From an uncultured Clostridia bacterium (GTDB lineage Bacteria; Bacillota; Clostridia; TANB77; CAG-508): DNA of 34,962 bases. The notes beneath the pieces are model-generated. The model worked only from the letters and a program-made list of their open reading frames with translations, was not told the origin of the DNA and searched no databases. Below, piece after piece: positions 19 through 17,056 of the stretch. The first letter of the stretch is position 1, and every line of letters starts with the position of its first letter. The stretch is taken from assembly GCA_947626235.1 (NCBI GenBank), contig CANQRI010000004.1:1-34962 (forward strand). The letters run 5' to 3'. Both the position numbers and the translations under genes were made by a program.

Positions 19-34
19 CTTTTATCCTCTTTCT

Positions 35-544: not shown

Positions 545-553
545 AAATACCTC

Positions 554-787: not shown

Positions 788-865
788 TAGGATTCCTCCT
801 ACTTAAAGTTTTAAATTACTTGCAATAATTTTTATAACTATTTACTTTTCATAACTTAAAACAAT

Positions 866-1108: not shown

Positions 1109-1244
1109 CTCCGAATAAAATATATATTTTAAAATAAAAAACTAAATTTATATATAATTTCACTCACTCTATGAATTACTTTAAAAAGAAATTACTTGCT
1201 ATAACCACTAAATTATTCAATTATGTGAGTTAAATCTAATATAA

Positions 1245-2597: not shown

Positions 2598-2642
2598 CTT
2601 TAATCCTCCCATCTTATGTGTTATTTAGAAGTTTTTAAGATA

Positions 2643-2990: not shown

Positions 2991-3066
2991 TTCCTACCAT
3001 CCTTCCATAAGGCACAAAAAAATAATTCCTTAATTATTTTATTTACCTCTGCTTTTTTGTAATGCT

Positions 3067-3100
3067 ATTATACTTTACACTATTTTTTCAATTTTGTCAA
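3067..3100 (-). promoter_or_regulatory. Probable sigma-A promoter of the ylxM-ffh operon
   Basis: On the minus strand TTGACA (3100-3095) is a perfect -35. The -10 is ambiguous: TAAAGT at 3077-3072 has a 17-base spacer, while TATAAT at 3072-3067 is a perfect hexamer but 22 bases away. The site lies about 80-110 bases upstream of ylxM. Confidence 0.5.
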
Positions 3101-3131
3101 GTACTTTTGCATTACTTTTCGCTACACAAAA

Positions 3132-3162
3132 GGAACTTGCTAACAAATTTGCTAGCAAGTCC
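3132..3162 (-). terminator. Hairpin terminator after thyX
   Basis: On the minus strand ACTTGCTAGC pairs with GTTAGCAAGT (one G-T pair) around a six-base AAATTT loop, followed by TCCTTTTGTG. It starts 12 bases after the thyX stop codon. The U-run is short, so efficiency is uncertain. Confidence 0.55.
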
Positions 3163-3173
3163 ACATTTTTTAA

Positions 3174-4325
3174 TTACACTAACCTTTCAAATGCACCTTT
3201 AGCTCCCCAGATACAAGGCTTATTACAAGTATAATCCGGGAACGTACATCTTGCGCCAGTTGAATACTGTAAAAGGTAGTTGTATACTCTTTCATCTGTT
3301 TCTTTTGTATTTCTTAAATATTCTTCTAATGTTCTCTTTGTCTGAAGTGCAGTTTCAAGCTGTGCACACCCGCATAAGCGTTCCTTGCATTTTTGCACAA
3401 AATCTTCTACCGAACCTCTTTCGTTAACAAGAACCAACTTTCCCTGTGGGAAATTTTTAGAAAGACTTCTAATATCGTCTAACCACTTTTCCTCTAGCTC
3501 TGTTCCTCTAATGCAATAAGGCACATAAAACTGATTGGAATACAGAGAATACTCATAAATCTCACACTTGGTTGTCCTATGGCGCATTGTCTGCGCATCT
3601 TGAGAAAACGTTGCTAAATAGTTACAGCAATAATTTTCTCCCCATTCTTCTTTTCTCCGCACCTTGGAAAATAAGGAAAGTTTTCTGTTTTTGGAATCTG
3701 CGTTAATTCCTTCCACTTTAAATCTAGCATGGATATCCACAAATTCCTGTAAATACGGTTTGAGCAACTTATTAAACTCTGTATCTTCCTCTTTTTGAAT
3801 GTAATCCTCCATAAAATGAAGAAGATAGCTGAACTGCTGGAAGGTAACCGAATAGCCCATAACCGTTGCCGGCGTAAATACACTAATTAAATAACGTGCA
3901 TTCTCCTGGGCAAGCCTCCCTAATTGCCTTTCTTTGATATCAGGATACAACTCATGTATACGAATTTTAAAAATTTCAATCCACTTCTCATATAGCTCTT
4001 TTTCGTCTTTTGAAGGTTTCATTTTAGTAAACCTTGCCGACTTTTCGGAAGTGTCGTATACCTTCTCGTTATTAAGAAACATAGCTAATATTTTCGGAAT
4101 ATCCTCAAATACAAAGTTATACCTAACATGTCCAAACACACTGTGATGGTTAGACGCCATGTTTCCCATAGCCCTTTTCATCGTTTTTTCTCTCGGCTCG
4201 TTAAAAATCTCGTCCACCGTATCAGGCATATAGCAAATACCCGCTTCTTTGCCTGAAAACTCGATTGCTTCCTCGATAGGAAGTTCATACCCTACCTTTG
4301 TTGATGCTATCACTCTTGACCGCAT
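3174..4325 (-). CDS. thyX: ThyX-like FAD-dependent thymidylate synthase, long double-domain form
   Basis: 383 residues, well over the usual 210-260 of ThyX. Two ThyX-like halves are visible. The first (about 45-190) has NHHSVFGH, EKSARF and ARYLISVFTPATVMGYS but no RHR. The second (about 230-383) has RHR at about 248-250 and CGCAQLE near residue 330. The classical RHR-x7-S spacing is not exact (RHRTTKCEIYEYS). ThyX makes dTMP from dUMP with FAD, NADPH and methylenetetrahydrofolate. The start at 4325 follows AAAGGAGGG; the longer ORF would begin 7 codons earlier, upstream of that site. Base use is visibly richer in G+C than in its neighbours, suggesting transfer. It could be a distant relative with another role. 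Confidence 0.75.
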   Translation of the reverse strand: MRSRVIASTKVGYELPIEEAIEFSGKEAGICYMPDTVDEIFNEPREKTMKRAMGNMASNHHSVFGHVRYNFVFEDIPKILAMFLNNEKVYDTSEKSARFTKMKPSKDEKELYEKWIEIFKIRIHELYPDIKERQLGRLAQENARYLISVFTPATVMGYSVTFQQFSYLLHFMEDYIQKEEDTEFNKLLKPYLQEFVDIHARFKVEGINADSKNRKLSLFSKVRRKEEWGENYCCNYLATFSQDAQTMRHRTTKCEIYEYSLYSNQFYVPYCIRGTELEEKWLDDIRSLSKNFPQGKLVLVNERGSVEDFVQKCKERLCGCAQLETALQTKRTLEEYLRNTKETDERVYNYLLQYSTGARCTFPDYTCNKPCIWGAKGAFERLV

Positions 4326-4383
4326 GCATTTCCCTCCTTTTAACATAATAATGTTATAAAAGTTACTAAAAATTTACATGGTA

Positions 4384-4412
4384 AGTCTATCATAATCATT
4401 TTACTTTTACAA
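4384..4412 (-). promoter_or_regulatory. Possible promoter of the thyX-like gene
   Basis: Minus strand TTGTAA (4412-4407), 17-base spacer, TAGACT (4389-4384). The start codon is about 60 bases downstream. Matches are partial (4 of 6 in each hexamer). Confidence 0.35.
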
Positions 4413-4440
4413 GCAAAATTTGACATTTTCCTTCATTTTT

Positions 4441-5344
4441 TTACATATTTGAGCTTTCCCAGTTTGGTACATATTCTTCCTCATGTTCTCCCAATTCTTG
4501 CATATATCCATTTTTGAAGTTTAGCAAATAAAAATATTCCTGAACTTCATTATATTCTCTTTTCGTTAACTTTCTATTAATCAGTTCATCTTCCTTTGCC
4601 TTATATGTTGGAAAATATTGTGCCATAACATTAACATACACATTTTCATCAATATTATCTTTTATCCATTTCAAAATGTGCTTTGTGTTTAAAATGTGGT
4701 TTGGAAGTACTAAATGTCTTATCATAACGCCTTTTTGTATAATTCCATTTTTATCAAATTTAGGTGCTCCTACCTGATTAATCATTTCTTGTATTGCCTT
4801 TGTTGCAATTTCAAAATAATTATTTACATTAGAATATTTTTTTGACATTTCATTTGAAAAATATTTTAAATCTGGTAAATATACATCTATATAACCGTTT
4901 CAAGTCTCTTAATGTTTCCACTGTTTCATATCCATTCGAATTGTATATAATAGGTATTTTTAAACCTTTTTCTTTTGCAATTTTTATTGCTTCTATAATT
5001 TGATAGGCATATGTTGTAGGTGTTACTAAATTTATATTATTTACCCCTTTACTTTGTAAATTTATAAAAATATCAGCTAAATCTTCTATTTCAATTTCAT
5101 ATCCTTTTGACTGTTGACTTATTTCATAATTCTGACAAAATTTACAATTCATATTGCAGTTAGAAAAAAATACTGTTCCAGAGCCATTTTTACCACTAAT
5201 GCATGGTTCTTCATACATGTGTACTGATGCAAGTGCTATTTTTATTTTATCATTACACTTACATCTTCCTATTTTCCCTTCTAATCTATTTACTTTACAT
5301 TTATGCGGACATATTTCGCATTTAATATATTGTTCTAAACTCAT
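4441..5344 (-). pseudogene. PflX-type radical SAM protein, broken by a one-base frameshift
   Basis: Two adjacent reading frames (5344-4850 and the next frame ending at 4441) together encode one protein of about 300 residues. The first part has an N-terminal Cys cluster (CEICPHKC, CKC) and the radical SAM motif CNMNCKFC (C-x3-C-x2-C) near residue 65. The family, COG1313/PflX, resembles pyruvate formate-lyase activating enzymes; its substrate is not established. At 4898-4900 the coding strand reads TTG AAA CGG; removing one A gives DLNGYIDVYLPDLKYFS, joining directly to the second frame's SNEMSKKYSN. The second frame has no ribosome binding site of its own. A sequencing error, a recent mutation, or rarely a programmed shift would explain it. 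Start chosen from AAAGGA before ATG at 5344. Confidence 0.85.
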
Positions 5345-5459
5345 ACTTTCATTTCCTTTAACTGTTATATTTCGCTTTATTTTATCATATTTTTAAAATT
5401 TAGTCTATTATTAAGTTTATTTTTGTGATATTATAATTAATTATAAGAGGTGATTTAAA

Positions 5460-6182
5460 TTGGCAATAATTGAACATAAATTTACAATTGGTTTAAAGGA
5501 GATAGATAAGAATCGTAAGATATCAAATGAATCTATTTTAGGCTTTTTTGAAGATATTGCAGGTTTTCATTCAGACAAGGCTGGATATGGAATTAATAAT
5601 ATAGATGAAACTCATTTAAGTTGGGTTTTATTGCATTGGAAATTACACGTAATTGATAGACCTAATTATGGTGAAACCGTAACTATAAAAACTTGGTCAA
5701 GAAATCCATTCAAATTTTATTCTTATCGTGATTTTGAAATGTATGATGAAAAGGGCAACCTTAAAGCAATAGCCTCTTCTCAATGGTCCTTAATTAATAT
5801 CAATAAAGGTCTTTCTAAATTAGATGATGACATTATTTCAAAATATGAATCTGAAAATAAAAGTGTTTTTAATGAAATAGAACTTCCAAAACTTACAGAG
5901 CCTTCTGAAATTTTAAGTACTTTTAACTATACTGTGCCAAGGCAGGTAATTGATATTAACGAACACATGCATAATTTATATTATTTAGATTTAGCCTATG
6001 AAGCTCTACCTTATGATGTTTACAAAAATTGTACTTTTGATAATGTTGAAATAATGTATAAAAAAAGTGCAAAATTAGGAGATACATTAAAATGCACTTA
6101 CTCTAAAATAAATGATGAACATTTTATTACTGTAAAAAGTATTGATGAAAAAAAGCTACATGCTATTATAAAATTAAGCTAA
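5460..6182 (+). CDS. Acyl-ACP thioesterase (FatA/FatB-type double hotdog)
   Basis: 240 residues, the normal bacterial size. The N-terminal hotdog (about 1-130) has the family segments ISNESILGFFEDIAGFHSD, LSWVLLHWKLHV and TIKTWSRNPFKFYSYRDFE; the C-terminal hotdog contains DINEHMHNLYYLDLAYEALP (near 160-180), matching the D-x-N-x-H-x-N catalytic segment. The enzyme hydrolyses fatty acyl-ACP to release free fatty acids in the cytoplasm. It begins with TTG at 5460, 5-6 bases after AGAGGTG; no ATG is better placed. It is divergent from the radical SAM gene and ends at a strong hairpin. Confidence 0.9.
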   Translation: MAIIEHKFTIGLKEIDKNRKISNESILGFFEDIAGFHSDKAGYGINNIDETHLSWVLLHWKLHVIDRPNYGETVTIKTWSRNPFKFYSYRDFEMYDEKGNLKAIASSQWSLININKGLSKLDDDIISKYESENKSVFNEIELPKLTEPSEILSTFNYTVPRQVIDINEHMHNLYYLDLAYEALPYDVYKNCTFDNVEIMYKKSAKLGDTLKCTYSKINDEHFITVKSIDEKKLHAIIKLS

Positions 6183-6187
6183 TACGC

Positions 6188-6219
6188 AAACAGAGAATAT
6201 TTTTTAATATTCTCTGTTT
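6188..6219. terminator. Bidirectional hairpin terminator
   Basis: A 14-bp perfect stem, AAACAGAGAATATT with AATATTCTCTGTTT, around a 4-base loop, and T-rich on both strands. It lies between the convergent thioesterase gene (ends 6182) and the RelA-like gene (ends 6223). Confidence 0.85.
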
Positions 6220-6222
6220 TTT

Positions 6223-7521
6223 CTATACCATTAATTTTTGTTTATTATCTTCATATTCGTTTATAATACTTTCAACTGCTTCAAACTCTTTGGTATTTGG
6301 CATTAATTGATTTTGGAAAAACATAACTGTATTTTCTAATAAAGAACATTTTCTTGCCACATACCCATCTTCCTTTTTATTTAATATAGTATATTTAGGT
6401 AACATATATTGTAGTTCTTTTATAAAATTTATTCCTACGCCTATAACAGGCAAATTTCTTTCTTTGCCAGGCCTTTTTGCATGTGATGCACTACCATTTC
6501 CACTTGCAATTTCTTCCACATATGTAGATTTAACTTGTAATTCAAAGCAATGCGTTTTATTGTTCTTAAATTGAAATTTTATATGGTCTGCAATATAACC
6601 ATTGGTTTTATTTTTGTGTTTTCTTGAATCTTTTATAACTTCCACATTCATTTTATCTAATAACTCTTGATTAGCTGAGAGTCTATCTACAAATTCTCTA
6701 CTTAATTCTATTAAACTAGCATTACTATATTGCTTTTTTCTTTCCGGATTAGTTTCATTATCTCTTTTTTGCAATAAGCTATTTAGAATTGCATTTTCTG
6801 TTTTAAAACCTTTAGGTATATTACTAATTACTATTTTCATTCCTCTTAAATCTTTTGCCCTTAAATAATCTTGTTCATCATATAAATTATCTCTTTTCTC
6901 ATTATCTTTAAGCAACATATCTATAGTTTCATATCTTAATAAATCATCTTCTATTCTACCCGTTTTCTGTGCTTTTGTCATTCCATATTCGTTTTCTAAA
7001 TGCTTTAATATTTGTTCTTTATTTTCTAAATTGCTTTCTTCTACTTTATGTTTTAATATTCTAAGCAATGCCGTTTTTGTACTTCTACTTAATTTTGTTT
7101 CAATTACTGTATCAAAAAATTCATCTAAATTCATCTCATCTACATTTGAGTATATTAGTTGTTTTATAAATTCTATTACCTCCTGTCCCAATTCTTTATG
7201 TTCGTATACTCTTTCTATTAATAAATTTAAAAGTTCTTCTTTTTCAGAATCTTTTACTTCTCCTACTACAAATAATTTTGATATTCTTTCTATTTGTAAA
7301 TTTTTAATTTTCCCAAATAAACTTTTGGGTGATTTTTCTCTAGCTTTTGGCAATTCTATTGTTACATCTGGATATAATTCTTTAAAATAATTTGCTATCA
7401 TAACAAATGCTTTATTTGCATTATCCTCATATTCTTTATTTAATTTTAACATTAATTGTCTCTCATAAGATTCTTGTATAGAACTTTTTTGTACTTTATA
7501 TTCTTCTCTTATATTAGACAT
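6223..7521 (-). CDS. Uncharacterised protein with divergent RelA/SpoT-like nucleotidyltransferase motifs
   Basis: 432 residues, no signal peptide or membrane segment. The order of short motifs resembles the (p)ppGpp synthetase fold: KSPKSLFGKIKN (about 63-74, like the K-S-P-x-S-x-x-x-K segment), DLRGMKIV (about 224-231, like D-x-x-G-x-R-I), TNGYIADH (about 306-313, like N-G-Y-x-S-x-H) and FELQVKS (about 326-332, like x-E-[IV]-Q-I-R-T), followed by a HAKRPGK segment. Between the first two motifs lies a helical insert of about 150 residues absent from ordinary synthetases. The start at ATG 7521 follows GGAAGGG; the longer frame uses GTG two codons upstream. This is inference from motifs only; it may be an alarmone enzyme, a toxin-type synthetase, or an unrelated fold. 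Confidence 0.5.
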   Translation of the reverse strand: MSNIREEYKVQKSSIQESYERQLMLKLNKEYEDNANKAFVMIANYFKELYPDVTIELPKAREKSPKSLFGKIKNLQIERISKLFVVGEVKDSEKEELLNLLIERVYEHKELGQEVIEFIKQLIYSNVDEMNLDEFFDTVIETKLSRSTKTALLRILKHKVEESNLENKEQILKHLENEYGMTKAQKTGRIEDDLLRYETIDMLLKDNEKRDNLYDEQDYLRAKDLRGMKIVISNIPKGFKTENAILNSLLQKRDNETNPERKKQYSNASLIELSREFVDRLSANQELLDKMNVEVIKDSRKHKNKTNGYIADHIKFQFKNNKTHCFELQVKSTYVEEIASGNGSASHAKRPGKERNLPVIGVGINFIKELQYMLPKYTILNKKEDGYVARKCSLLENTVMFFQNQLMPNTKEFEAVESIINEYEDNKQKLMV

Positions 7522-7635
7522 CTGCACCCTTCCTTTTTTTAATAGTCTACTCTATATTGTATAACAAATTTTGTAAAAAGTCCAGATGTATTGCCAAAAT
7601 AATTAACATAATTTTCTTGTTATTTCGACATTTTT

Positions 7636-8610
7636 CTATTTATAACAATTTGAAATTTCAGAAACTATAAAATTAAATATAGTATCACGAGAGCCCACTG
7701 CTGTACAACCTGAAGAATACGAATGTCCTCCTCCTTTTATTAACTTTCCTTCTAATACAAGTTTAGAACAAACTGTATTTAAATCAATTTTTTCATCAAA
7801 TGTACGTAAAGAACCTCTATACTCACCCTTATTATTCTCAATTAATAAAATTAATGAAGAATATCCTACTGTTTGCTGAAGTTCTGCGATAATAGCCTTA
7901 TGATTAAGCGTATTTAAGCTTTTTTCTGAATCTAATAAATCCTTTTGCAACAGATATGTACAAAAAATAGAATTATTTGAATCATTAGAAAAGTAACCTC
8001 TATTTTTTGCAAGTTCTGCTAATTCTTTAGTTCTATTGCTTGCTGAAGATATTTTAGTTGAAATATCTTCTATATCTATTCCACATTTTTTCAATTCATT
8101 TATGATATTAATTGCCTCATCTGTTACATTTAATTTCAAATAAGACGTATCTGAAATTAAGCCAGTAGCAATGCAAGTAAGAAATTCAGTGCTTGTACAA
8201 TGTAAAATTTTATAAATAATGCATGTGCAAGATGGAGCAGATGAATCAATAAATTTATGTGTTGTATTTATTAAAGTTTTCTCATGATGATCAAAACAAA
8301 CTGTTATTTTTGCACATTTTAGAACATTTGACTGTTCTATTCTATACATATTAGAACAATCAACAACAATAGCTACATCATAATTTTCTTTAGTTGCAGA
8401 TTTTTTTAAATTTTCTATTCCTGGAAGAAACGAAAAATCGTTAAGAAATTCAGGAATAATTACATCAATATTACTAGATTTTTTTCCTATACTAACTAAA
8501 TACCAAAACATTGAAAGCGAACTAGAAATGGCATCTCCATCTGGTCTATTATGAGTAACAATTACAAATGTTTCTGCATTATTAAATACTTCATTTAAAA
8601 TATCATTCAT
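7636..8610 (-). CDS. DHH-family phosphoesterase, NrnA-like (oligoribonuclease / pAp phosphatase)
   Basis: 324 residues, matching NrnA length. Motif I VTHNRPDGDAISSS (about 18-31), motif II VVDCSN (about 85-90), the DHH motif FDHHE (about 110-114), and near the C-terminus the DHHA1 signature IKGGGHSYSSGC. NrnA enzymes degrade 2-5 nucleotide RNAs and dephosphorylate pAp in the cytoplasm using metal ions bound by the DHH residues. The longest frame begins 24 codons earlier in a non-coding-looking stretch; AAAGGAG at about 8625 supports ATG 8610, although the spacing of about 14 bases is long. Confidence 0.88.
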   Translation of the reverse strand: MNDILNEVFNNAETFVIVTHNRPDGDAISSSLSMFWYLVSIGKKSSNIDVIIPEFLNDFSFLPGIENLKKSATKENYDVAIVVDCSNMYRIEQSNVLKCAKITVCFDHHEKTLINTTHKFIDSSAPSCTCIIYKILHCTSTEFLTCIATGLISDTSYLKLNVTDEAINIINELKKCGIDIEDISTKISSASNRTKELAELAKNRGYFSNDSNNSIFCTYLLQKDLLDSEKSLNTLNHKAIIAELQQTVGYSSLILLIENNKGEYRGSLRTFDEKIDLNTVCSKLVLEGKLIKGGGHSYSSGCTAVGSRDTIFNFIVSEISNCYK

Positions 8611-8716
8611 TTCAATTAATTTTTCTCCTTTATATATTAATTTTCGTTCATAATAGCATACGTTAAATAATATTGTCAACAACTTTACATTTCTATTTTT
8701 ACATTATAAAAGCAAA

Positions 8717-8745
8717 CTAATAGGCCAGTTTTGCTAGCCTATTAG
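8717..8745 (-). terminator. Terminator of the cotJ operon (after the cotJC 3' part)
   Basis: Minus strand CTAATAGGC pairs with GCCTATTAG around an 11-base loop, followed by TTTGCTTTTAT. It lies 15 bases after the stop codon of the cotJC 3' segment, so it would end the rejoined cotJABC transcript as well as that of the recombinase. Confidence 0.8.
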
Positions 8746-8759
8746 CCTTGTAAATATTA

Positions 8760-8990
8760 TTATTGGCAATTACAATTATTATTGTTGTCACACATTTTTT
8801 TAGAGCAATTAGACATATAGAACTTCTTTTCAGCTAATTTATCTTGTACTCCACGAAGTGCCTCTCCAAATCTTTGGAAGTGAACTATTTCTCTTTGACG
8901 TAAGAAACGAAGTGGATCTAATACATCTGGATCATCTCTACATAAATCTATTAATTTTTCATAAGTTGCTCTAGCTTTTTGCTCTGCTGC
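8760..8990 (-). pseudogene. cotJC: cotJC 3' segment, separated from its 5' part by the element
   Basis: The frame running from 9068 down to 8760 encodes, after about 26 residues of element-derived sequence, the C-terminal third of a CotJC protein: AAEQKARATYEKLIDL, DDPDVLDPLRFLRQREIVHF, QRFGEALRGVQ. In the manganese catalase family this part supplies a Glu and a His metal ligand (Glu of AAEQKAR, His of EIVHF; family knowledge, residue match inferred). The tail is Cys/Asn-rich (CSKKMCDNNNNCNCQ), like CotJA and CotJB. It has no start of its own that homologs would use and overlaps the recombinase 3' end out of frame. Joined to 15934-16332 it completes a 209-residue CotJC. Confidence 0.93.
8983..8990 (-). 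repeat. Attachment core, recombinase-side junction
   Basis: TCTGCTGC, identical to 15926-15933 and limited to exactly 8 bases (flanking bases differ on both sides). On the cotJC strand it reads GCAGCAGA, encoding Ala-Ala plus the first two bases of the next codon (Glu GAG here, Asp GAT at the other end). Element-side arm CCTTGAAAGTACAAC lies at 8993-9007. Confidence 0.88.
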
Positions 8991-9009
8991 AACCTTGAAA
9001 GTACAACAA

Positions 9010-10650
9010 TTAAATTTTCCAGTGTATAATAATGGTTTTCTTTTTAGTTTCTGGGTCTTTTTGACCAACCTCTATATAATCAATTAAGTTATCTACCATT
9101 TCTCTGGAAAGTTCTGTTACATTTATATATTTTTCTAATATCTGTCTTTTAGACTTCAATGTTTCTTGTTCATTATTAAGTTCTAACAATTTTTTTTCTT
9201 TTTCTTTTAATAATTTTTCCAAATTTTCCTTTTCTTTTTGGAAACTTTTATTAAACTCTATAAACTGCTCTTGGCTTATGATTTCATTTATTTTGTCTAT
9301 ATAAGAATCTCTTATTGCTTTTGATTTTTTTTGTATATTAGCTTGGTACTGTAATATTTCCTTCTGCAACTTTTCTCTCTCATTTCTAAATTGATTAAAG
9401 ATGATATTTTCTTCTAATTGGTCTATATTCAAATATTTATCTATCAATAAATTTAACTCTTTTAATACTGTTCTTTCTAGTACCTTTTGTGATATAAAAC
9501 TACCTTTACAATTACTTTTATCAACTTGTCTAGTTGGGCATCTTAAATATCTATCGTCGTGAGATTTACTTGTTTTTAACGTATAACCACAGTATCTACA
9601 TTTGCATTTTTTTGCAAATACTCCAACTTTTCCTCCTACAAATGGTTTAAAGTTTTCACTGATTTTACTTTGTACACTATTCCATAAGTCCTTATCAATA
9701 ATGGCTTCGTGTGTTCCTATGACTATATCCCATTGTTCCTTTGGTTTAGGTTTATTCTTATGACTTTTATAGGAAATACTACCATATTTACCTTGTACCA
9801 TATTGCCAATATACATTTCATTTTGTAACATATCTGCTATTGCTGAATATTTCCATAAAATTCCTAATTTATTTTTAGGTGTTTTATATGTTATACTATT
9901 TTGTACTTTGTATTGTGTGGGATTGGGTATGCCTCTATTATTTAACTCTCTAGCTATTGCTGTTTTTCCCATTCCTTGATTATATAATGAAAATACCTCT
10001 CTTACAACTTCTGCTGCAACTGGGTCAATAATTAAATGTCCCTTTTGATTTGGGTCTTTTGTGTAACCATACAAAGGTAATCCACCTGTATAACAGCCTT
10101 TTTCTCTTTGGTTTTTCTTGACTGATTTTATATTTTCTGATAGGTCTTCTAAGTACCATTCATTAACCAAACCATTTATTTGTCTTGATTTCTTATTTCC
10201 TTTTACGTCAGTATCTGCATTATCTACTAAACCAATAAATCTTATGTTCCATTCAATAAATAAACCATTGATGTATTTTTCTACTAATTCTAGCTCCCTT
10301 GTAAATCTGCTTTGGCTCTTGCATAATATAATATCAATTTCTCTTCTTTCTGCTAATTTTAATATCTTATTGAAATTAGGTCTGTTTCTATCTGCTCCTG
10401 CATAGTCATCATCACTATAAACTCCTTCTATTTCCCAACCTTGTCTTATTGCATATTCAGTCAACATCAATTTTTGATTTTGTATACTTCTGCTATCATC
10501 CTCCTCGTTTTCCTTATTTCTATCTTCTTCAGATAGTCTGCAATAAATTGCTACTCTCAATACTTTACTTTCCACACTTGCTCTAACTTCTTCTATTTTC
10601 TCATTAGAAAGGGCAGAATATGGAATTGTTACATTATTTTCTACATTCAT
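9010..10650 (-). CDS. Large serine recombinase of the cotJC element
   Basis: 546 residues. Resolvase-type catalytic domain (about 30-175) with the nucleophile Ser in AIYCRLSEED (about residue 40) and partner residues DDSRSIQNQ and SQSRFTRE; recombinase domain (about 195-300; GGLPLYGYTKDP, GKTAIARELNNRGIPNPTQ); zinc ribbon with CKCRYC (about 349-354) and further Cys near 371 and 381; long coiled coil (about 405-515). This is the layout of phage-type integrases and of SpoIVCA, which excises skin. The enzyme would cut both att cores and join them. ATG at 10650 follows AGGAGGAAA; the longer frame starts 9 codons upstream of that site. The stop codon is 20 bases from the core, touching the attP-like arm. 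No clear sigma-E promoter was found. Confidence 0.96.
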   Translation of the reverse strand: MNVENNVTIPYSALSNEKIEEVRASVESKVLRVAIYCRLSEEDRNKENEEDDSRSIQNQKLMLTEYAIRQGWEIEGVYSDDDYAGADRNRPNFNKILKLAERREIDIILCKSQSRFTRELELVEKYINGLFIEWNIRFIGLVDNADTDVKGNKKSRQINGLVNEWYLEDLSENIKSVKKNQREKGCYTGGLPLYGYTKDPNQKGHLIIDPVAAEVVREVFSLYNQGMGKTAIARELNNRGIPNPTQYKVQNSITYKTPKNKLGILWKYSAIADMLQNEMYIGNMVQGKYGSISYKSHKNKPKPKEQWDIVIGTHEAIIDKDLWNSVQSKISENFKPFVGGKVGVFAKKCKCRYCGYTLKTSKSHDDRYLRCPTRQVDKSNCKGSFISQKVLERTVLKELNLLIDKYLNIDQLEENIIFNQFRNEREKLQKEILQYQANIQKKSKAIRDSYIDKINEIISQEQFIEFNKSFQKEKENLEKLLKEKEKKLLELNNEQETLKSKRQILEKYINVTELSREMVDNLIDYIEVGQKDPETKKKTIIIHWKI

Positions 10651-10686
10651 TTTATATTTCCTCCTATCAGAAAACAATAAAATGAA

Positions 10687-10735
10687 CCAATATTATCTGC
10701 TACATCTTATAACATATAATATTGGCTCTTGTAAA
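10687..10735 (-). promoter_or_regulatory. Recombinase promoter region with a 10-bp inverted repeat
   Basis: Minus strand TTTACA (10735-10730), 18-base spacer, TATAAG (10711-10706). Arms CCAATATTAT and ATAATATTGG (10725-10716 and 10696-10687) form a perfect inverted repeat that brackets the -10. This looks like an operator or a leader hairpin and could control when the recombinase is made. The hexamers are partial matches. Confidence 0.45.
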
Positions 10736-10750
10736 CTGCTCTCCCTAATT

Positions 10751-10861
10751 TTATTTATTTAACATTAACTTTACTACTAATTGCCAAGTGTCGTTAAATG
10801 CTTGACATCTATCTGCTTCACTTGTAGAAACAAACACATTCTCACATACTATTGTATTCAT
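10751..10861 (-). CDS. Small ORF of 36 residues upstream of the recombinase
   Basis: ATG at 10861 follows AAAAGAGGTG with good spacing and opens a 36-residue peptide, MNTIVCENVFVSTSEADRCQ and onward, ending in QLVVKLMLNK. It is collinear with the recombinase, about 100 bases upstream of it. I recognise no family. Its size, placing and ribosome binding site fit a small regulatory protein; a recombination directionality factor is one possibility, with no sequence support. Confidence 0.5.
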   Translation of the reverse strand: MNTIVCENVFVSTSEADRCQAFNDTWQLVVKLMLNK

Positions 10862-11313
10862 CTTCAATACACCTCTTTTAGTAAAATCCTATTCAATAGT
10901 AACGACACTTATGCATCATTGTTTAGATAGCAAATGTGTGTTATTTATCTATTGATAGCTCTGTTGCACTTCGCTAATTGCAAATAATCATTAAACAACT
11001 GCTTGTAGCAGTACATAGGATTTTCACCTGCCTATAATCCATAGACTTGGTTTCAATGTTTGCGATGTTTCATTTATCACAACTAGAAATACTAATTATT
11101 ATAAATCATACACTCGAACTATGACTAACCAAAAGTATCATTATAGTGTGTTTAATGACTTTCTATTCAATTTTCAATGTATGCTATATTCTTAATCAAG
11201 AACATATTTGCATCATCTGCGCTAAATACATGAGCATTATTAAGTTCTCATTATTATCTTATGAAAGTTATTTTTAAGGATTTCAAACTTTGGAACTATA
11301 AGTGCAATGATTA
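10862..11313. other. About 450-base stretch without a sizeable gene
   Basis: The region lies between the recombinase side and the divergent XRE gene. It holds one 23-codon ORF with a ribosome binding site (10945-11016) and, at 11247-11167 on the minus strand, an open stretch reading ELNNAHVFSADDANMFLIKN without an ATG or GTG start. Both look protein-like rather than random and may be decayed small genes. No terminator or clear repeat was seen. Confidence 0.45.
10945..11016 (-). CDS. Possible 23-residue small ORF
   Basis: ATG at 11016 is preceded by GCAGGTGAAAATCCT, a usable ribosome binding site, and encodes MYCYKQLFNDYLQLAKCNRA then INR. FND-x-x-QL recurs in the 36-residue ORF downstream (FNDTWQL), hinting at related peptides. 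With 23 residues this could be chance. Confidence 0.25.
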   Translation of the reverse strand: MYCYKQLFNDYLQLAKCNRAINR

Positions 11314-11342
11314 TTGATATTTAATTTGCATTGTGATAAAAT
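11314..11342 (+). promoter_or_regulatory. Promoter of the XRE regulator
   Basis: TTGATA (11314-11319), 17-base spacer, TAAAAT (11337-11342); five of six bases match the consensus in each hexamer. The start codon is 37 bases further on. Confidence 0.65.
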
Positions 11343-11378
11343 GTGGAATTATAAAAACAAATAGAGGTAGGTAAAAGT

Positions 11379-11933
11379 ATGGAAAATGGATTTGAAATGT
11401 ATTCAAATGAAGACTTTGGGAAGAACTTGCAAACATTGATAGATGATAGTGGATATAGTACAACTGAAATTGAAAAAAAGTTAAAAGACAATTGGAATAT
11501 AGAATTCAGTCATCGACAACTAGATAAATACAAAAGTGGTAAGTCTAATCAAATAATAAGAGCAGATAAATTATATGCACTTGCTTGTTTTTTTAGTGTC
11601 TCAATAGATGCTTTGCTTGGAAGATGTGAACTAGATGGCTTCTACTATATGGAAAATCAACCTAGTATAAATAAGTTTCATTTAGATTCTAAATCTAAGT
11701 GCATTTTAAGTGAAATGAGAAACGAAACACAAATTGATATTATAAATAAGATTATATCTTCTCCAAACATATTAGAAACATTTGCTACACAACTAGAAAA
11801 CGCTTCTAAACAAATTAAGTCAACAGAAGATATAGAGAGCAAAGAAACAATTACTTATGTTGCAAGTTGCATATTACAAAGAGAAATAGATAAGCTATTT
11901 AGAAAATGTCTAAAAGAGTTTTTAAAAAAGTAG
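11379..11933 (+). CDS. XRE-family helix-turn-helix regulator
   Basis: 184 residues. The N-terminal part (about 10-80) is a Cro/CI-like DNA-binding domain: FGKNLQTLIDDSGYSTTEIEKKL, then HRQLDKYKSGKSN and LYALACFFSVSIDALLG, the typical XRE ending. The C-terminal 100 residues have no recognised domain and are Ile/Ser/Glu-rich. It starts at ATG 11379 after AGAGGTAGG. It is divergent from the recombinase and 730 bases away, the usual position of an element's repressor. Its targets are not shown; the inverted repeat before the recombinase is a candidate. Confidence 0.88.
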   Translation: MENGFEMYSNEDFGKNLQTLIDDSGYSTTEIEKKLKDNWNIEFSHRQLDKYKSGKSNQIIRADKLYALACFFSVSIDALLGRCELDGFYYMENQPSINKFHLDSKSKCILSEMRNETQIDIINKIISSPNILETFATQLENASKQIKSTEDIESKETITYVASCILQREIDKLFRKCLKEFLKK

Positions 11934-12066
11934 AGTACCAAAATTGGTCGATTCAGGTACTGTTAAACTATAACTTCCTATGTAATGTTCTTAAATGTTT
12001 ATAAACGCTGTTATCTCAACCATTTCAATATAGCAATGATTCTTTCATAAAAGTTTCAAAAATTAT

Positions 12067-12090
12067 TACCAGAATGATTGACTTCTGGTA
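12067..12090. repeat. Inverted repeat upstream of the resolvase gene
   Basis: TACCAGAA and TTCTGGTA form a perfect 8-bp inverted repeat around 8 bases, 42 bases before the resolvase start. It could be part of a res-type binding site or a weak terminator; there is no T-run after it. Confidence 0.45.
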
Positions 12091-12131
12091 CACAATTGCG
12101 GTACCATGTCTCCAGTAAGGAGGTAGGTATT

Positions 12132-12686
12132 ATGTTGATAGGTTACAAAAGATGTTCAACACAAGAACAAAAATTAGATAGACAAACTGATATATTAAAT
12201 CAATATGGTGTTGATAAAATATTTGAAGAAAAGATAACTGGAACTAAAAGAGATAGACAAGAATTAAATAAAATGCTAGAAATGTTAAGAGAAGGCGATA
12301 TTGTAGTTGTTACAGACTTAACACGATTATCACGCTCTACAAAAGACTTATTTGATATAGTAGAAACTATAAATAATAAGGGGGCAGAAATAAAATCATT
12401 GAAAGAAAGCTGGCTTGATACTACAACACCACAAGGGAAGTTACTTTTTACTATTTTTGCTGGGTTAAGTCAATTTGAAAGAGATTTAATAGCTGATAGA
12501 ACTAAGGAAGGACTTGCTTCTGCAAAGAAAAGAGGAAAGGTTCTTGGTAGACCCAAAAGGTTCCAAGATAAGAAAGAAACCATATTAAATATGTATAACT
12601 CAAATGATTATTCTATAAATGATATTATAAATGCTACTGGAATATCTAAAACTAGTCTTTACAGATTAGTAAATGGGGATTACTAA
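12132..12686 (+). CDS. Small serine recombinase (resolvase/invertase family)
   Basis: 184 residues, the usual resolvase size. N-terminal catalytic domain with nucleophile Ser in YKRCSTQEQKLDRQ (about residue 9), GTKRDRQELNKML, TDLTRLSRSTKDLF and the E-helix region GLSQFERDLIADRTKEGLA; C-terminal helix-turn-helix (about 140-184; YSINDIINATGISKTSLYRLV). Such enzymes resolve multimers or invert short segments. ATG at 12132 follows AAGGAGGT; the longer frame begins 18 codons earlier, before that site. It lacks the large domain needed for typical integration, so the larger recombinase is the likely excision enzyme. Confidence 0.93.
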   Translation: MLIGYKRCSTQEQKLDRQTDILNQYGVDKIFEEKITGTKRDRQELNKMLEMLREGDIVVVTDLTRLSRSTKDLFDIVETINNKGAEIKSLKESWLDTTTPQGKLLFTIFAGLSQFERDLIADRTKEGLASAKKRGKVLGRPKRFQDKKETILNMYNSNDYSINDIINATGISKTSLYRLVNGDY

Positions 12687-12705
12687 ACATAACATATTCA
12701 AAAAT

Positions 12706-12734
12706 TTGACAGTTTACAAAATATATGCTATAAT
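12706..12734 (+). promoter_or_regulatory. Perfect consensus sigma-A promoter
   Basis: TTGACA (12706-12711), exactly 17 bases, TATAAT (12729-12734). No protein gene on this strand follows before the terminator at 13113, so the product is probably an RNA. Confidence 0.85.
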
Positions 12735-12742
12735 AATAGTAG

Positions 12743-12766
12743 TTTGAAACTAATATTAGTTTCAAA
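12743..12766. repeat. 24-bp perfect palindrome at the predicted transcription start
   Basis: TTTGAAACTAAT followed directly by ATTAGTTTCAAA. It starts 9 bases after the -10 hexamer, so it could be an operator covering the transcription start or the first hairpin of the RNA. Confidence 0.75.
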
Positions 12767-12817
12767 GGGGGTAAGTTCTACCATACTTTATTCGAATTTG
12801 TGAATACAAGATGAAAT

Positions 12818-12839
12818 GAAGTATGGGCGCCCATACTTC
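12818..12839. repeat. 22-bp perfect palindrome
   Basis: GAAGTATGGGC followed by its reverse complement GCCCATACTTC. As RNA it gives a 9-bp stem with a GCGC loop and competes with pairing to CCATACTT at 12781-12788. Confidence 0.75.
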
Positions 12840-12863
12840 CTATAACAACAATTATCAATATAC

Positions 12864-13064
12864 TATGACCGCTATAAAGTACCACCTAATTGGGAAATAT
12901 AACATAAGTCCAAGGGCAGAGAGTCCCAAGTAGAGACTGATTAGTTGAGATAGTTATAGAATAAAGTATGTGGCAAAAATACACACTAACTTACAAATTT
13001 ATGACCGTTCTTAGAGTAACAAGTAGAAATAAGAGCATAAGTCCCAAATAAGAGTGACTGATTA
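12864..13064 (+). repeat. Two imperfect tandem modules about 136 bases apart
   Basis: Module 1: TATGACCG at 12864, CATAAGTCC at 12903, GACTGATTA at 12935. Module 2: TATGACCG at 13000, CATAAGTCC at 13036, GACTGATTA at 13056. In both, AGTCCCAA-R-TA precedes GACTGATTA and can form a short AGTC/GACT stem. The intervening sequence differs, as expected of a duplicated RNA domain. Confidence 0.6.
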
Positions 13065-13112
13065 AATTGTAAGATTAGGTAAAGTGTAGCTCCTGTAAAT
13101 GAACTTAAAATA

Positions 13113-13134
13113 AAAAAAGAAAGCGTTCTTTTTT
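13113..13134. terminator. Intrinsic terminator, usable on both strands
   Basis: AAAAAAGAA and TTCTTTTTT form a 9-bp stem around AGCG, with T-runs on either strand. It would end the putative RNA on the plus strand and the 13190-13528 gene on the minus strand. Confidence 0.7.
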
Positions 13135-13189
13135 CTGTAAGTAAAACTCAATAACACAAAACAACAAAAACAGTTTTTCTTCAAAGTAG

Positions 13190-13528
13190 TCACACAATGT
13201 GGCTACTTTCTTTATTTAATTTAGTTGCTATAATATAACCAAACAAGAATAATTGCTGTTCTTCTTCACAAGACATTTGATTTGTAATTTCCCAGTACTG
13301 CTCAAACAGTTTTTGCTGTTCCTCTGTAAATGTAGATTCCATTTTGTCTGATATCCTTAATTGCTTAGTTCTTAACTTTTCATATTCCAAACTTGGAGTA
13401 TACAATTCTTCTTCAAAATAACTAAACAATGTTTTAAGCAATTTCATATTACTAAAATCAATATTCTGCAAAGCATCTGTATCAAATATGCTGTCAAAAT
13501 GCCTTAATATATCTTTTGCATTTTCCAT
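13190..13528 (-). CDS. Small acidic protein resembling DUF6809 family
   Basis: 112 residues. Features: an acidic middle with SFYFEEELYTPSLEYEKL-like composition (residues 36-52 read SYFEEELYTPSLEYEKL), a charged helix pair, then FTEEQQKLFEQYWEITNQMSCEEE and FLFGYIIATKLNKE. The pattern of eY, eeq..F, s.eee..F..G...g..L..E resembles the DUF6809 proteins common in Clostridia and their mobile elements; function unknown. AGGAGGTG stands 5 bases before ATG 13528. It is the last gene of the minus-strand group in the element. Confidence 0.7.
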   Translation of the reverse strand: MENAKDILRHFDSIFDTDALQNIDFSNMKLLKTLFSYFEEELYTPSLEYEKLRTKQLRISDKMESTFTEEQQKLFEQYWEITNQMSCEEEQQLFLFGYIIATKLNKESSHIV

Positions 13529-13611
13529 TATAACACCTCCTCAAACCATTCTAATTGATGGTCTCTAGCTTACCGGAGATGTTCTCATTTGTCAATCTAT
13601 TTTTAAAATAT

Positions 13612-14268
13612 CTATAAACTTTTAAATCCAAACTTGGTGAATAATTTCTCTAACTTATTATAGTCAGATATATCTTTCGCAGTTGAAGTATCTTTTGGAT
13701 AGTAACATTTTCTATCTTCATTATAATTACCACCATTAATGTAATGATGCTTTGATAGTTCTAAAATGCTTTCACTACACCTCTGTCTATGTTCATAACC
13801 TCTGATTTTAAATAAAGCATGATAAGGTTTTAAATTAAAATCAGGTGCTATTACATTCTCAATATCTGTATTTAACCATTGCTCTATTTGATTTCCAATC
13901 TCATCATATGCTTTTACCACATATCCTTTATCCTTAATAACAATCCAAGATGGAGTATAACCAGTTAAAGCATAAGAGGCTAGATTAGCTGAAGGTCTCT
14001 TAGCATAATCATAATACATAACTTGACATCTTTTATTTAAGTCTTTTGATAATTTAATTGCCACATTTGTATCATTTACAATTGCTACCATTTCAGTATC
14101 TTTTATTCTAAATATGTTTAATCTTAATCTATCTGAGATTGTTGCAACATAATCAAATTGATTTGCAGATACATTATCTATAACCGTTATAGAACAACTT
14201 TCTTTTTTCTTTGTATATGCAATTGTTTCTTCTAATGATATGGATTGTAAATCTGTTATCTTTAACAT
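13612..14268 (-). CDS. Uncharacterised element protein, 218 residues
   Basis: I recognise no family. The protein has no signal peptide or membrane segment. It is alternating alpha/beta in character, with SCSITVIDNVSANQFDYVAT (about 25-44), VMYYDYAKRPSANLASYALTGY (from about 84, with the run shortened here to key residues YYDYAKRP and YALTGY) and several His/Tyr-rich stretches near the C-terminus (GYEHRQRC, SKHHYINGGNYNED). Start: ATG 14268 after AAGGGTGA; the longer frame starts 6 codons upstream of that site. Its neighbours are the DUF6809-like gene and, upstream, the 70-residue gene and the Rep-like gene on the same strand. Confidence 0.65.
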   Translation of the reverse strand: MLKITDLQSISLEETIAYTKKKESCSITVIDNVSANQFDYVATISDRLRLNIFRIKDTEMVAIVNDTNVAIKLSKDLNKRCQVMYYDYAKRPSANLASYALTGYTPSWIVIKDKGYVVKAYDEIGNQIEQWLNTDIENVIAPDFNLKPYHALFKIRGYEHRQRCSESILELSKHHYINGGNYNEDRKCYYPKDTSTAKDISDYNKLEKLFTKFGFKSL

Positions 14269-14469
14269 ATTTGATTCACCCTTCAATTTTCTAAATACTA
14301 ATGATTACATTAACACAATTATATCTATTTTGTAAAGTAATATTTATATATAAGTTTTAAATTTCTTCAAGCCTTTTTATTTATCCTTTATATACTTTTA
14401 TATCTTATATACTAAAAGTGCCTTAAAATCGATTGTCACAAGAGTTAGAAATAAATTATATCTATTAGT

Positions 14470-14682
14470 CTAGTTATTATCTACTTCAAATATTGTATAT
14501 GCTTTATACAGTAATGTTTTAGTTTTTGATAATAAAGTTGAAATATATAAATAATCAGTATATGATAGTTCTTCTGTGAAATCTGTATATTCTGTTAGCT
14601 TTCTAATTATTTTATTGATATCATAAATATCTCTTTCAACTGCAGTATCAGTCAATGATTGTCGTACTTCTATTAAATGCAA
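14470..14682 (-). CDS. Small uncharacterised protein, 70 residues
   Basis: The frame begins with TTG at 14682, 9 bases after GGAG of AAAGGAGATG; no ATG fits. The product is mostly helical and acidic (VERDIYDINKIIRKL, ELSYTDYLYISTLL). It follows the Rep-like gene by 67 bases on the same strand. No family recognised. Its size is in the range of excision or copy-control factors, but nothing in the sequence shows this. Confidence 0.55.
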   Translation of the reverse strand: MHLIEVRQSLTDTAVERDIYDINKIIRKLTEYTDFTEELSYTDYLYISTLLSKTKTLLYKAYTIFEVDNN

Positions 14683-14749
14683 TTACAACATCTCCTTTAT
14701 ACTATAATTAGTTTCTCATTAATATTTTACTTGATATTTCCTCAACTTA

Positions 14750-15751
14750 TTATGCCAAAAATCTCTCATATAAGATTTCAAAGGCAAAAATAATAAAGGT
14801 CATAATAATTACAACCTTTATTGTTTTTGATTTGATTTTGCTTTTAGTTTCATTATACTTTAATGTTAAATATGTATTTACTATATTTTCTTTTACTTCT
14901 AATATATTATCTTTACTTTGCTGACTAGTGTTTGTTCTTACTTTCTTAAACAATTGAGTAGTTACTGCATTCATAATCCTATAAGTATTACCATTTCTAA
15001 TAAGATAAGTTTTGTTTGAAATATTTCTATACACATCTGATTCTACCTCTACACATTCTCCATAAAGTAACTTTTCTTTTGGTGGTGATATTATCCCTTT
15101 ACTTTTGTTGTACATCTTTGCACCTTTAGGAAAGTATTTAAATCTTTCTAGTCTTTCATTTCTCTTATCTTTTGAATGTCTTAATGATTTAATAGTATTT
15201 AAGTTTTGCATTACATATACACCATTGTGTTTCCAGATTTTTCTTAATTTCTCTTGTGATATAAATAACCTCTTATTATCTGTTGTCTTTATAAAAGCAT
15301 GTATATGCCAACAACCTTTTTCTGTTTGCTCAAATAAACCAATATGTTCTATATGATTAAACTCTGTTTGTTTCTTTAATTCTTTTATAAAATTACTATA
15401 GTAGTCCTTGATTACTAATATATCTGTTACATTCTCTTTACAAGTCAAAGTAACAAATATTTCTTTTACACTACCTGGAAAATTGTATAAAACTTTCTCC
15501 TCATAATCTCTTAGTTTTCTTCTAACACTACTAATACTTGTGTGATTATCTAAATCATACTTCTTAACCTCACCAGTTCTCTTATCCACATATTCATATT
15601 TATTTAATTTCCTTATATAACTACCAATATTAATCTTATTTCTTACCTTTACAATTTTACTATATCTACCTAAATCTATTTTTACAACTTCATCTGTATC
15701 TTTTATCTTATGTGGAATCTCACTACATTCAACTATAACATTTCTATTCAT
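14750..15751 (-). CDS. Rolling-circle replication initiator-like protein (HUH type), possibly without the usual Tyr motif
   Basis: 333 residues. The N-terminal half has motif 1 EIFVTLTCK (about 97-105) and the His-hydrophobe-His motif WHIHAFIKT (about 148-156), then FPKGAKMYNKSKGIISPP (about 207-224), which matches the segment after the active-site Tyr in Rep proteins of Gram-positive elements. Where homologs usually have a Y-L-x-x-Y-L helix, this protein reads TIKSLRHSKDKRNERL. A membrane helix lies near the C-terminus (about 311-326; VVIIMTFIIFAFEIL), followed by 8 residues. A working Rep would nick DNA and start replication of the excised circle. Start: ATG 15751 after GGGGGA; a start five codons upstream is excluded by that site. 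Confidence 0.75.
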   Translation of the reverse strand: MNRNVIVECSEIPHKIKDTDEVVKIDLGRYSKIVKVRNKINIGSYIRKLNKYEYVDKRTGEVKKYDLDNHTSISSVRRKLRDYEEKVLYNFPGSVKEIFVTLTCKENVTDILVIKDYYSNFIKELKKQTEFNHIEHIGLFEQTEKGCWHIHAFIKTTDNKRLFISQEKLRKIWKHNGVYVMQNLNTIKSLRHSKDKRNERLERFKYFPKGAKMYNKSKGIISPPKEKLLYGECVEVESDVYRNISNKTYLIRNGNTYRIMNAVTTQLFKKVRTNTSQQSKDNILEVKENIVNTYLTLKYNETKSKIKSKTIKVVIIMTFIIFAFEILYERFLA

Positions 15752-15894
15752 AATTATTTCCCCCATATCTATTCTGTAAAGAATGACATTTCTATTGTTA
15801 CATACTAATAAAATTAAAAAGGAACTTACCCATCAAAAAAAGACACATACTAATGTATGGTCTAATCTTAAATATTGGTTCATTCTATTGTATT

Positions 15895-16332
15895 TTACTT
15901 ATGTTGTACTATCAAAGGGACAACATCTGCTGCTAAATCTTCTTGTAAGTTTGCAATTGGATCCCCTTTGCAAGCTATATACGCCGCAGTCCATGGATTT
16001 CCAGCTGCTGATACAGGATATACATCTACACCATGATCTGTATAATAAGCACCTAATCCTGCTTTTTCTATTTCTTCAGGTCCAACACCTTCTGTTAATT
16101 GGTGTACTATTGAACCAACCATTTCCAAGTGAGCTAATTCTTCTGTGCCTATATCGTTCAAAGTTGCTTTTGATCTTTGGTCTGGCATTCCGAATCTTTG
16201 AGATAAATATCTTAAAGAAGCTGAAAGTTCTCCATCTGGGCCACCATATTGAGAAATTATAAATTTTGCAAGTTTTGGATTTGGACATTTTATATTAACT
16301 GGATATTGTAATACTTTGTTATAAGTCCACAT
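15895..16332 (-). CDS. cotJC: cotJC 5' part, manganese-catalase-type spore coat protein, interrupted
   Basis: The frame encodes 145 residues, of which the first 133 are CotJC (MWTYNKVLQYPV, PNPKLAKFIISQYGGPDGELSAS, IGTEELAHLEMVGS, GNPWTAAYI, LQEDLAA) and the last 12 come from the element (DVVPLIVQHK and stop). GELSAS and EELAHLE hold the first metal ligands of the manganese catalase family; the Glu and His of the C-terminal part are missing, so this product alone should not bind the di-manganese site. ATG 16332 after AAGGGGGAA overlaps the cotJB stop (TAATG); the longer frame begins 9 codons earlier inside cotJB. In B. subtilis CotJC is made in the mother cell under sigma-E. Confidence 0.93.
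   Translation of the reverse strand: MWTYNKVLQYPVNIKCPNPKLAKFIISQYGGPDGELSASLRYLSQRFGMPDQRSKATLNDIGTEELAHLEMVGSIVHQLTEGVGPEEIEKAGLGAYYTDHGVDVYPVSAAGNPWTAAYIACKGDPIANLQEDLAADVVPLIVQHK
15926..15933 (-). repeat. Attachment core, far-side junction
   Basis: Second copy of TCTGCTGC. The element-side arm GTTGTACTATCAAAGGG lies at 15903-15919 and mirrors the arm at 8993-9007, as expected for two halves of an attP site. Confidence 0.88.
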
Positions 16333-16706
16333 TAAAAATTCCCCCTTTCCCATGGCCATGGTTCTTCAAGCCATCTCCATTTATTACATGGGAAATAGAT
16401 AGATAGAGGTCCATAAACCTTTTGATATTTTTCTTTTAAATCTTTAAGTTTTTTAGAATAATCTTTGTGAAGATAAATAGCTCTTTCATCATCTGGGTGA
16501 GTATTTAAATATTCAGAAATATCAACTACAGCAAAATCTAAAGCACGAATTTTATCTAGCATTTCATCTCTTTGCATTTGCTTTTCTTCACAAGTATTAT
16601 CATTTTGAATATTAGTAAATTCATAAGAATAAGTTGAAACTGCAGGTGATTGATTATTTGAAGAACAACAGCAGTTACAATTTCTGTTTTCGCAATCTTC
16701 TAACAT
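16332..16706 (-). CDS. cotJB: CotJB, spore coat protein
   Basis: 124 residues. A Cys-rich N-terminus (CENRNCNCCCSSNN) precedes the CotJB domain: MLDKIRALDFAVVDISEYLNTHPDD, then the run AIYLHKDYSKKLKDL and the end YGPLSIYFPCNKWRWLEEPWPWE, all family signatures. Members belong to the inner spore coat and act with CotJA and CotJC. ATG 16706 overlaps the end of cotJA by 7 bases and has GGGAGGGATG upstream. The stop overlaps the cotJC start, so the three genes are translationally linked. Confidence 0.94.
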   Translation of the reverse strand: MLEDCENRNCNCCCSSNNQSPAVSTYSYEFTNIQNDNTCEEKQMQRDEMLDKIRALDFAVVDISEYLNTHPDDERAIYLHKDYSKKLKDLKEKYQKVYGPLSIYFPCNKWRWLEEPWPWERGNF

Positions 16707-17056
16707 TTGTTACATCCCTCCCCAATAGTGTTTGTAGCTTTAATAAAAGCATTCTCTTCTAATGATTGACAAGGTGAATAAGGATTTACAAGTTCAGGGA
16801 AAATAGTTCCCATTTTTAACCCTACAGCAGGAGTAAAAGTTTTATTCATTGTTTGAATTGGAACATAACTTTGACCAAACATAGGATTAGCTGGAAATAC
16901 AGATGGTGCTTCATCAAATCCACAATCACATTCATCATTGTCATTGTTTGCTGTATAATAGTCGGCTGTAACACCGCAATTATTGCAAGCATTTTCTATA
17001 ATATCATTATTATAATTTTGTTGACAACAACATTTTCTATATTTGCAATTATACAT
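16700..17056 (-). CDS. cotJA: CotJA, spore coat-associated protein
   Basis: 118 residues. The CotJA core is APSVFPANPMFGQSYVPIQT and the following MNKTFTPAVGLKMGTIFPELVNPY (about 58-100). The first 50 residues are rich in Cys and Asn (CKYRKCCCQQNYNND, CNNCG, CDCG), unusual against the short B. subtilis protein. AAGGAGGA stands before ATG 17056. It heads the cotJABC operon. AT-rich sequence upstream contains partial matches to a sigma-E promoter (for example CATATTAT) but no convincing pair. Function: needed in other Bacilli for assembly of CotJC into the spore. Confidence 0.93.
   Translation of the reverse strand: MYNCKYRKCCCQQNYNNDIIENACNNCGVTADYYTANNDNDECDCGFDEAPSVFPANPMFGQSYVPIQTMNKTFTPAVGLKMGTIFPELVNPYSPCQSLEENAFIKATNTIGEGCNKC

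Follow-up and report, generated by a model that had tools for sequence, protein, structure and literature searches.

The described systems closest to the one reported here are elements that interrupt sporulation genes: skin in sigK of B. subtilis and C. difficile, gin in gerE of B. cereus (PMC5595907), yin in yabG of C. botulinum (PMC10747680, which also cites vfbin), and SP-beta in spsM, where a spore envelope gene is reversibly interrupted (PMC4191935); here and below, statements drawn from cited papers refer to the portions of them available to us. We describe a similar arrangement in a 34,962-nucleotide stretch of contig CANQRI010000004.1 from an uncultured Clostridia bacterium, the whole of which we call the window, and in which the gene cotJC is broken at codon 136 by an insert of 6,943 bp (one copy of a short core repeat counted). 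Like skin, this element occupies a mother-cell sporulation gene, has a large serine recombinase by one end, and is predicted to leave its host gene exactly restored. With gin, which has a 9-bp overlap, it shares a small host gene, a non-phage character and a serine recombinase, to which gin adds a small partner protein and the present element candidates for one, and with yin, whose two forms coexist in a population, a clostridial sporulation gene as the host of a serine-recombinase element.

No title or abstract that we found, in mainly open-access literature, reports cotJC as the host of an intervening element; one paper, PMC8878733, mentions cotJC, a prophage and an integration site. We think it probable that the element in the Glu136 codon is excised by its recombinase and cotJC rejoined exactly, likely in the mother cell during sporulation.

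A gene split at codon 136 and its predicted rejoining

Both parts of cotJC lie on the minus strand, the 5' part ending and the 3' part starting with the same 8 bp, GCAGCAGA. Fusion of the two at a single core copy gives 630 nt in one open frame of 209 codons plus stop, with LQEDLAAEQKAR as the predicted peptide across the join. A preliminary description of the window had placed the parts about 6.9 kb apart on one strand with an identical 8-bp core, joined them in frame over 630 bases, and reported cotJB and cotJA as intact and a large serine recombinase next to one end of the element; all of this was reproduced, cotJB and cotJA lie upstream, and the recombinase gene stops 19 bp ahead of the 3' core copy. 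The features of the junctions are as follows.

8760..8990, minus strand: cotJC 3' part
8983..8990, minus strand: core copy GCAGCAGA at the 3' junction
8985..9008, minus strand: arm of the attachment site attP on the cotJC 3' side, right after the recombinase stop codon and including most of the core copy
8983..15925, no strand: intervening element, 6,943 bp with one core copy
15902..15925, minus strand: attP arm on the cotJC 5' side of the element, 18/24 positions pairing with the other arm
15926..15933, minus strand: core copy GCAGCAGA at the 5' junction, its terminal GA (the inferred crossover) within the Glu136 codon
15926..16332, minus strand: cotJC 5' part, codon 1 to the GA of codon 136, including the core copy
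16332..16706, minus strand: cotJB, intact
16700..17056, minus strand: cotJA, intact

A lone 8-bp repeat is weak evidence, and is raised above chance here by an uninterrupted site in a sister species, by a closely related element at the same codon in genus g24, and by the symmetry of the attP site. The uninterrupted counterpart, which the preliminary description proposed to seek among related genomes, is found in the sister species G012, whose DNA is 96-98% identical to window positions 1-8990. From codon 65 to the end its cotJC lacks the window element and aligns with the joined gene of the window at 427 of 438 bases, with no gaps. The related element is in G077, of genus g24, where the same codon is interrupted; its recombinase half and that of the window element are 97% identical over 3.86 kb. 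The host genes of the two agree at 143/200 and 144/170 positions on the two flanks; within the elements, the 200 bases beside the 3' core agree at 196/200, and the 5'-core side, as printed, is nearly as close.

When the two ends of the window element are abutted they form a 50-bp inverted repeat around a central GA, with 18 of 24 pairs matching. The attP sites of large serine integrases have this form. Pairing of attP is 15-20/24 across the 11 junctions tested (at sites 65 and 135, named below), and that of the host attB 3-9/24. The central GA makes up the first two bases of the Glu136 codon, and in an alignment with the solved manganese catalase structure 1JKU the CotJC residues Glu35, Glu65 and Glu136 fall opposite Glu35, Glu66 and Glu148, which we take to be metal ligands of that enzyme. 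The inferred crossover GA falls inside the Glu65 codon at site 65 and inside the Glu136 codon at site 135; at site 36 it lies, as read by eye, inside the Asp33 codon, two codons before Glu35. The glutamate that the join was said to restore is Glu136, aligned with Glu148, a presumed manganese ligand.

No separate intact cotJC was found in the same genome: neither the 5' part nor full-length CotJC gave a further match besides the two pieces, a negative limited by the assembly, which comprises 1.47 Mb in 114 contigs and is 88% complete.

Insertion sites in cotJC and the recombinases that use them

The preliminary description was right on anatomy and understated the reach of the phenomenon. Its proposal of cotJC as a skin-like host agrees with the exact restoration of the frame, and missed that the site is one of at least four in cotJC, with one more in cotJB, that are used family-wide and beyond. 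A cotJC match is present in 26 of the 27 genomes sampled from the genus: 11 are uninterrupted, 14 are split only (G005, G009, G012 and G016 show a single piece, and the middle piece of G004 was not found), and one, G025, has both forms. The family sample holds 195 genomes, 171 of them with a match. There is one uninterrupted match in 78 (six of these with extra pieces elsewhere), a weak paralogue only in two, an element assembled between collinear cotJC pieces in 32 (span 3.3 to 46 kb), pieces on two contigs in 18, pieces abutting in a shifted frame in 12, and one side or unplaced pieces in 29, including G025. The last four classes, 91 genomes, were counted after removal of the rows of eight genomes that combine an uninterrupted copy with other matches (additional pieces in G033, G045, G046, G120, G184 and G196; weak paralogues in G031 and G123), of rows for weak paralogues, of a short G153 piece, and of the joined contig of G025, which for this reason falls among the 29. 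G169 is ambiguous.

Four sites recur, at about codons 36, 65, 101 and 135, with assembled insertions in 3, 18, 5 and 11 genomes respectively. Inserts at 65 and 135 occur together on one contig in G086, G170 and G174, and G160 has pieces for sites 65, 101 and 135, the site-65 piece being on another contig. The neighbouring cotJB is split near its last codons by another element, with recombinase open reading frames (ORFs) adjoining, in G010 (locus L111, at about 3639) and G026 (L130, at about 6773). At the level of the class, with the own family counted in, 96 of 148 genomes match at 1e-8. Outside the family, at least seven appear to have pieces far apart on one contig; three of these seven are single-contig genomes (G234, G246, G344). 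We note also that in L312 (G174), L321 (G138) and G082 there are either additional or duplicated 3' pieces of cotJC, separated by a few kb, or two copies with different splits, which suggests that insertion occurred in tandem or that the gene was duplicated.

A quick tree whose branches are long, combining 30 recombinases of cotJC elements with 44 encoded elsewhere in the genus (omitting those read in two overlapping frames or shorter than 480 aa), places on one side of a branch each the recombinases of site 65 (11), a second site-65 type (3), site 101 (4), site 135 (6), and site 36 (3, with support of only 83). Sites 101 and 135 join in a clade of 11 that includes one extra site-135 recombinase, and both recombinases of the site-135 element in G086 fall outside the site-135 clade. 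Since the recombinases mostly cluster by site, at least four lineages target cotJC. Relatives, at 39-67% identity, are also carried by eight IMG/VR contigs, six of which hold a CotJC fragment that breaks at residues 132-136, and viral-classed contigs thus use the same codon.

Pieces of CotJC, with the break at residue 65 or about 133, were likewise seen in a circular 23.9-kb Subdoligranulum variabile record and in human faecal 'Bacteriophage sp.' records, at these positions.

L337, 5317-5505: CotJC piece
L338, 1997-2188: CotJC piece
L339, 1959-2153: CotJC piece

Away from cotJ, a feoB-like gene is interrupted in two species at one shared codon, with the 14-bp repeat TACCATGTGCATGG, at L146 (own genome, contig C9) and L217 (G014), and at L203 (G019) the gene for a 2,791-aa GH94-family protein is split by about 7.8 kb.

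The cotJC pieces that abut in a shifted frame were first read as splits, a reading that was rejected for 11 of the 12 genomes, which show +1 shifts at CGG; in the twelfth, G200, the pieces end at codon 138. Genes that continue in the +1 frame at CGG were met as a separate phenomenon, in the window (4895-4897, minus strand) and at L111 (5288-6869, minus strand), L113 (7778-9359, plus strand) and L198 (3415-4876, plus strand), with further loci at L250, L252, L253, L258, L265, L268, L287, L298, L299, L303 and L304; apart from the cotJC genes of 11 genomes, they include the site-101 recombinase of two and SpoIVA of one. In the reference genome G011, where CGG accounts for 80 of 296,012 codons (0.27 per 1000), an in-frame CGG occurs in 36 of 128 overlapping +1 pairs of long ORFs, against about 0.3 expected in 1,210 overlap codons. 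The G011 pieces, 71 of 71, yielded no tRNA-Arg whose anticodon is CCG or TCG, which is weak evidence because other tRNAs are missing too. The pattern is suggestive of programmed +1 frameshifting that is widespread and occurs at an unassigned CGG codon. Reassignments of CGG and loss of its tRNA are reported near C. difficile (PMC8629427), and the available part of that paper mentions no such frameshift.

Proposed developmental excision and the alternatives

Were the element excised as proposed, its recombinase would act with a small partner protein, the candidates being a 38-aa ORF beside the recombinase or a 70-aa ORF. Excision would take place in the mother cell, the site of cotJ expression, whereas the forespore would retain the element, which would presumably then impose little cost on growth and be inherited through the spore. 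Of the set of such sites cotJC is the main member: elements with other recombinases occupy it near codons 36, 65 and 101, and another occupies cotJB. A genome with several inserts would need several excisions for one protein. In its broad form the proposal is one to which we lean, with reserve: that throughout a large family of gut Clostridia cotJC exists in pieces, with four recurring sites held by site-dedicated recombinase lineages (those of 101 and 135 being sisters), two crossovers in metal-ligand glutamate codons, and some species with two or three inserts dependent on several mother-cell-specific excisions for a single Mn-catalase-like coat protein.

The state of the split genes was assessed from 27 distinct 3' pieces of genes split at site 65, from the loci retrieved by that stage, and 85 intact genes. 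The median ratio of nonsynonymous to synonymous substitution rates (dN/dS) for split pieces is 0.066 when paired with the nearest sequence of any kind (25 pairs) and 0.111 with the nearest intact one (27 pairs); that of intact cotJC is 0.071 (n=85). Split cotJC genes are therefore under strong purifying selection, about as in intact genes. The gene part of all 27 pieces is free of stops, the two stops of L123 lying before the break. Together with the fully open join in the window, these values bear out the earlier view that the fragments are not decayed, and they make it most improbable that split cotJC is a decaying pseudogene, as a few pieces elsewhere with several stops (G153, G208) might suggest. 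Hardly more credible is the possibility that no DNA is excised and that each half is translated on its own, the two polypeptides then assembling. Each half does lie in an open frame, of 154 and 102 aa, but the TTG at which the listed 3' frame starts belongs to the end of the element, elements at one site differ in the DNA that precedes the break, and several proteins would be required where the gene is in three or four pieces.

Both forms of a split gene can be seen in the relative G025, where joined-form and inserted-form contigs have a common 127-bp end that stops at the insertion codon, 65 (126 of the 127 bp were seen in the inserted-form contig, retrieved one base short). This assembly fork implies that both cotJC forms are present in the sample. 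A contig of G196 that resembles an assembly bubble was rejected as a further case: its flanks are only 83% and 78% identical to the intact copy of G196, and it must therefore derive from a different strain or species and is no evidence for G196.

With respect to regulation, cotJB and cotJC belong to the sigma-E (mother-cell) regulon according to Table 2 of PMC3416734, a paper that also places SpoIVA, another mother-cell gene, under sigma-E. Of 73 distinct regions upstream of cotJA, 54 contain a CATA-type promoter pattern, AC-N13-18-CATANNAT, against a mean of 1.2 after shuffling, the pattern having been chosen after viewing the same sequences.

Several points weigh against developmental excision. 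Five of 45 recombinase loci of the genus away from cotJ split a gene on both sides (detectable only for genes present in G011), and the five genes, two feoB-like and one each of GH94, VirB4-like and ParA-like, include no known sporulation gene; that an element interrupts a gene does not, then, establish developmental control. The low dN/dS may partly predate each insertion, and single values reach 0.305. The sister species without the window element, G012, is itself split at site 65 by another element, and the non-recombinase half of the window element is only 78% identical over 1.05 kb to that of the g24 relative, with the rest less so. The two forms in G025 may represent two strains, or excision. 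The joined cotJC and the circle junction of a window-type element gave 0 exact matches in viral contigs, and no conserved promoter of mother-cell type was found upstream of the recombinase.

Such observations lend some weight to the idea that cotJC is a harmless landing site for ordinary serine-integrase elements, with excision spontaneous or stress-driven, not developmental, and spores formed mostly by cells that by chance have the joined gene, or without CotJC. It would accommodate the feoB-like and other non-sporulation genes split by the same kind of element, the use of the same codon in viral-classed IMG/VR contigs, and the C. difficile mutants in two CotJC homologues, in which catalase activity is lower without a significant coat defect (PMC11222575). 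We consider this unlikely, though by some way the most serious alternative, in view of the purifying selection on the pieces and of a control draw of 59 genomes. There, assembled splits affect cotJC in 9 of 54 genomes with a match (G000, G030, G035, G050, G052, G062, G077, G079, G082), SpoIVA in 2 of 58 (G042:C44 and G080:C1, at about codon 403, by 5-9 kb) and pyruvate kinase in 0 of 55 (its match is partial in G067, with two pieces on two contigs, and in G037, with one piece). SpoIVA, present in 26 of the 27 genus genomes, also lies on two contigs, cut at the same place near codon 403, in G048 and G060. We infer developmental excision as the best-supported mechanism, and its timing is a prediction.

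Gene content of the element and comparison with described systems

The window element encodes the following.

9010..10677, minus strand: large serine recombinase, 555 aa, in a clade with same-codon recombinases of five other genomes
10751..10867, minus strand: small ORF preceding the recombinase, listed at 38 aa; candidate directionality factor
11379..11933, plus strand: transcriptional-regulator-like protein (phrog_8)
12078..12686, plus strand: small serine resolvase/invertase
13190..13528, minus strand: DUF6809 protein, present in five other site-135 elements
13612..14286, minus strand: 224-aa protein, no family assigned in scans
14470..14682, minus strand: 70-aa protein, second candidate directionality factor, present in five other site-135 elements
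14750..15766, minus strand: rolling-circle replication initiator-like protein

The recombinase has resolvase, recombinase, zinc-ribbon and DUF4368 domains. The 38-aa ORF recurs upstream of the recombinase in seven other matching site-135 elements (L309-L313, L315, L317), where a conserved GGTGTATT stretch precedes it, and is the first candidate for a directionality factor, the 70-aa ORF being the second. The sequence CATAAGT, conserved before the 38-aa ORF in five of the eight elements printed, was not accepted as a sporulation promoter. Scans with Pfam, PHROGs and NCBIfam detected no phage structural or lysis genes among seven element proteins, and the mobile element is in that respect unlike a prophage; PADLOC gave no defence genes among five element proteins.

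A C. difficile CotJC homologue adjoins prophage phi027 (PMC11222575), an association that may be related to the cotJC elements, and the skin element of that species has a directionality factor (PMC5025042, PMC10747680). Whereas the host of skin encodes a sigma factor, cotJC is a coat gene for an enzyme-like protein, its element is small and shows no phage structural genes, and several recombinase lineages use several sites within it. The gin element measures 28.6 kb, has three recombinases, and its excision has been shown (PMC5595907); the cotJC element, at 6.9 kb, has one large recombinase and one small resolvase, and a rolling-circle Rep, with excision predicted. While yin is prophage-like and reported as unique to one strain (PMC10747680), cotJC elements recur across genera, and SP-beta is an active prophage for which the part of the report consulted names only one site (PMC4191935). 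The known cases that we found thus number one per host gene (sigK, spsM, spoVFB, gerE, yabG), in contrast to cotJC, which is cut at several codons, in many genera and by no fewer than four lineages of recombinase. The cotJC elements provide dozens of natural replicates for examining why elements choose mother-cell genes, how a recombinase lineage moves between sites, and whether gut spore-formers excise DNA routinely as a programmed step, and they also supply serine integrases with inferred att sites.

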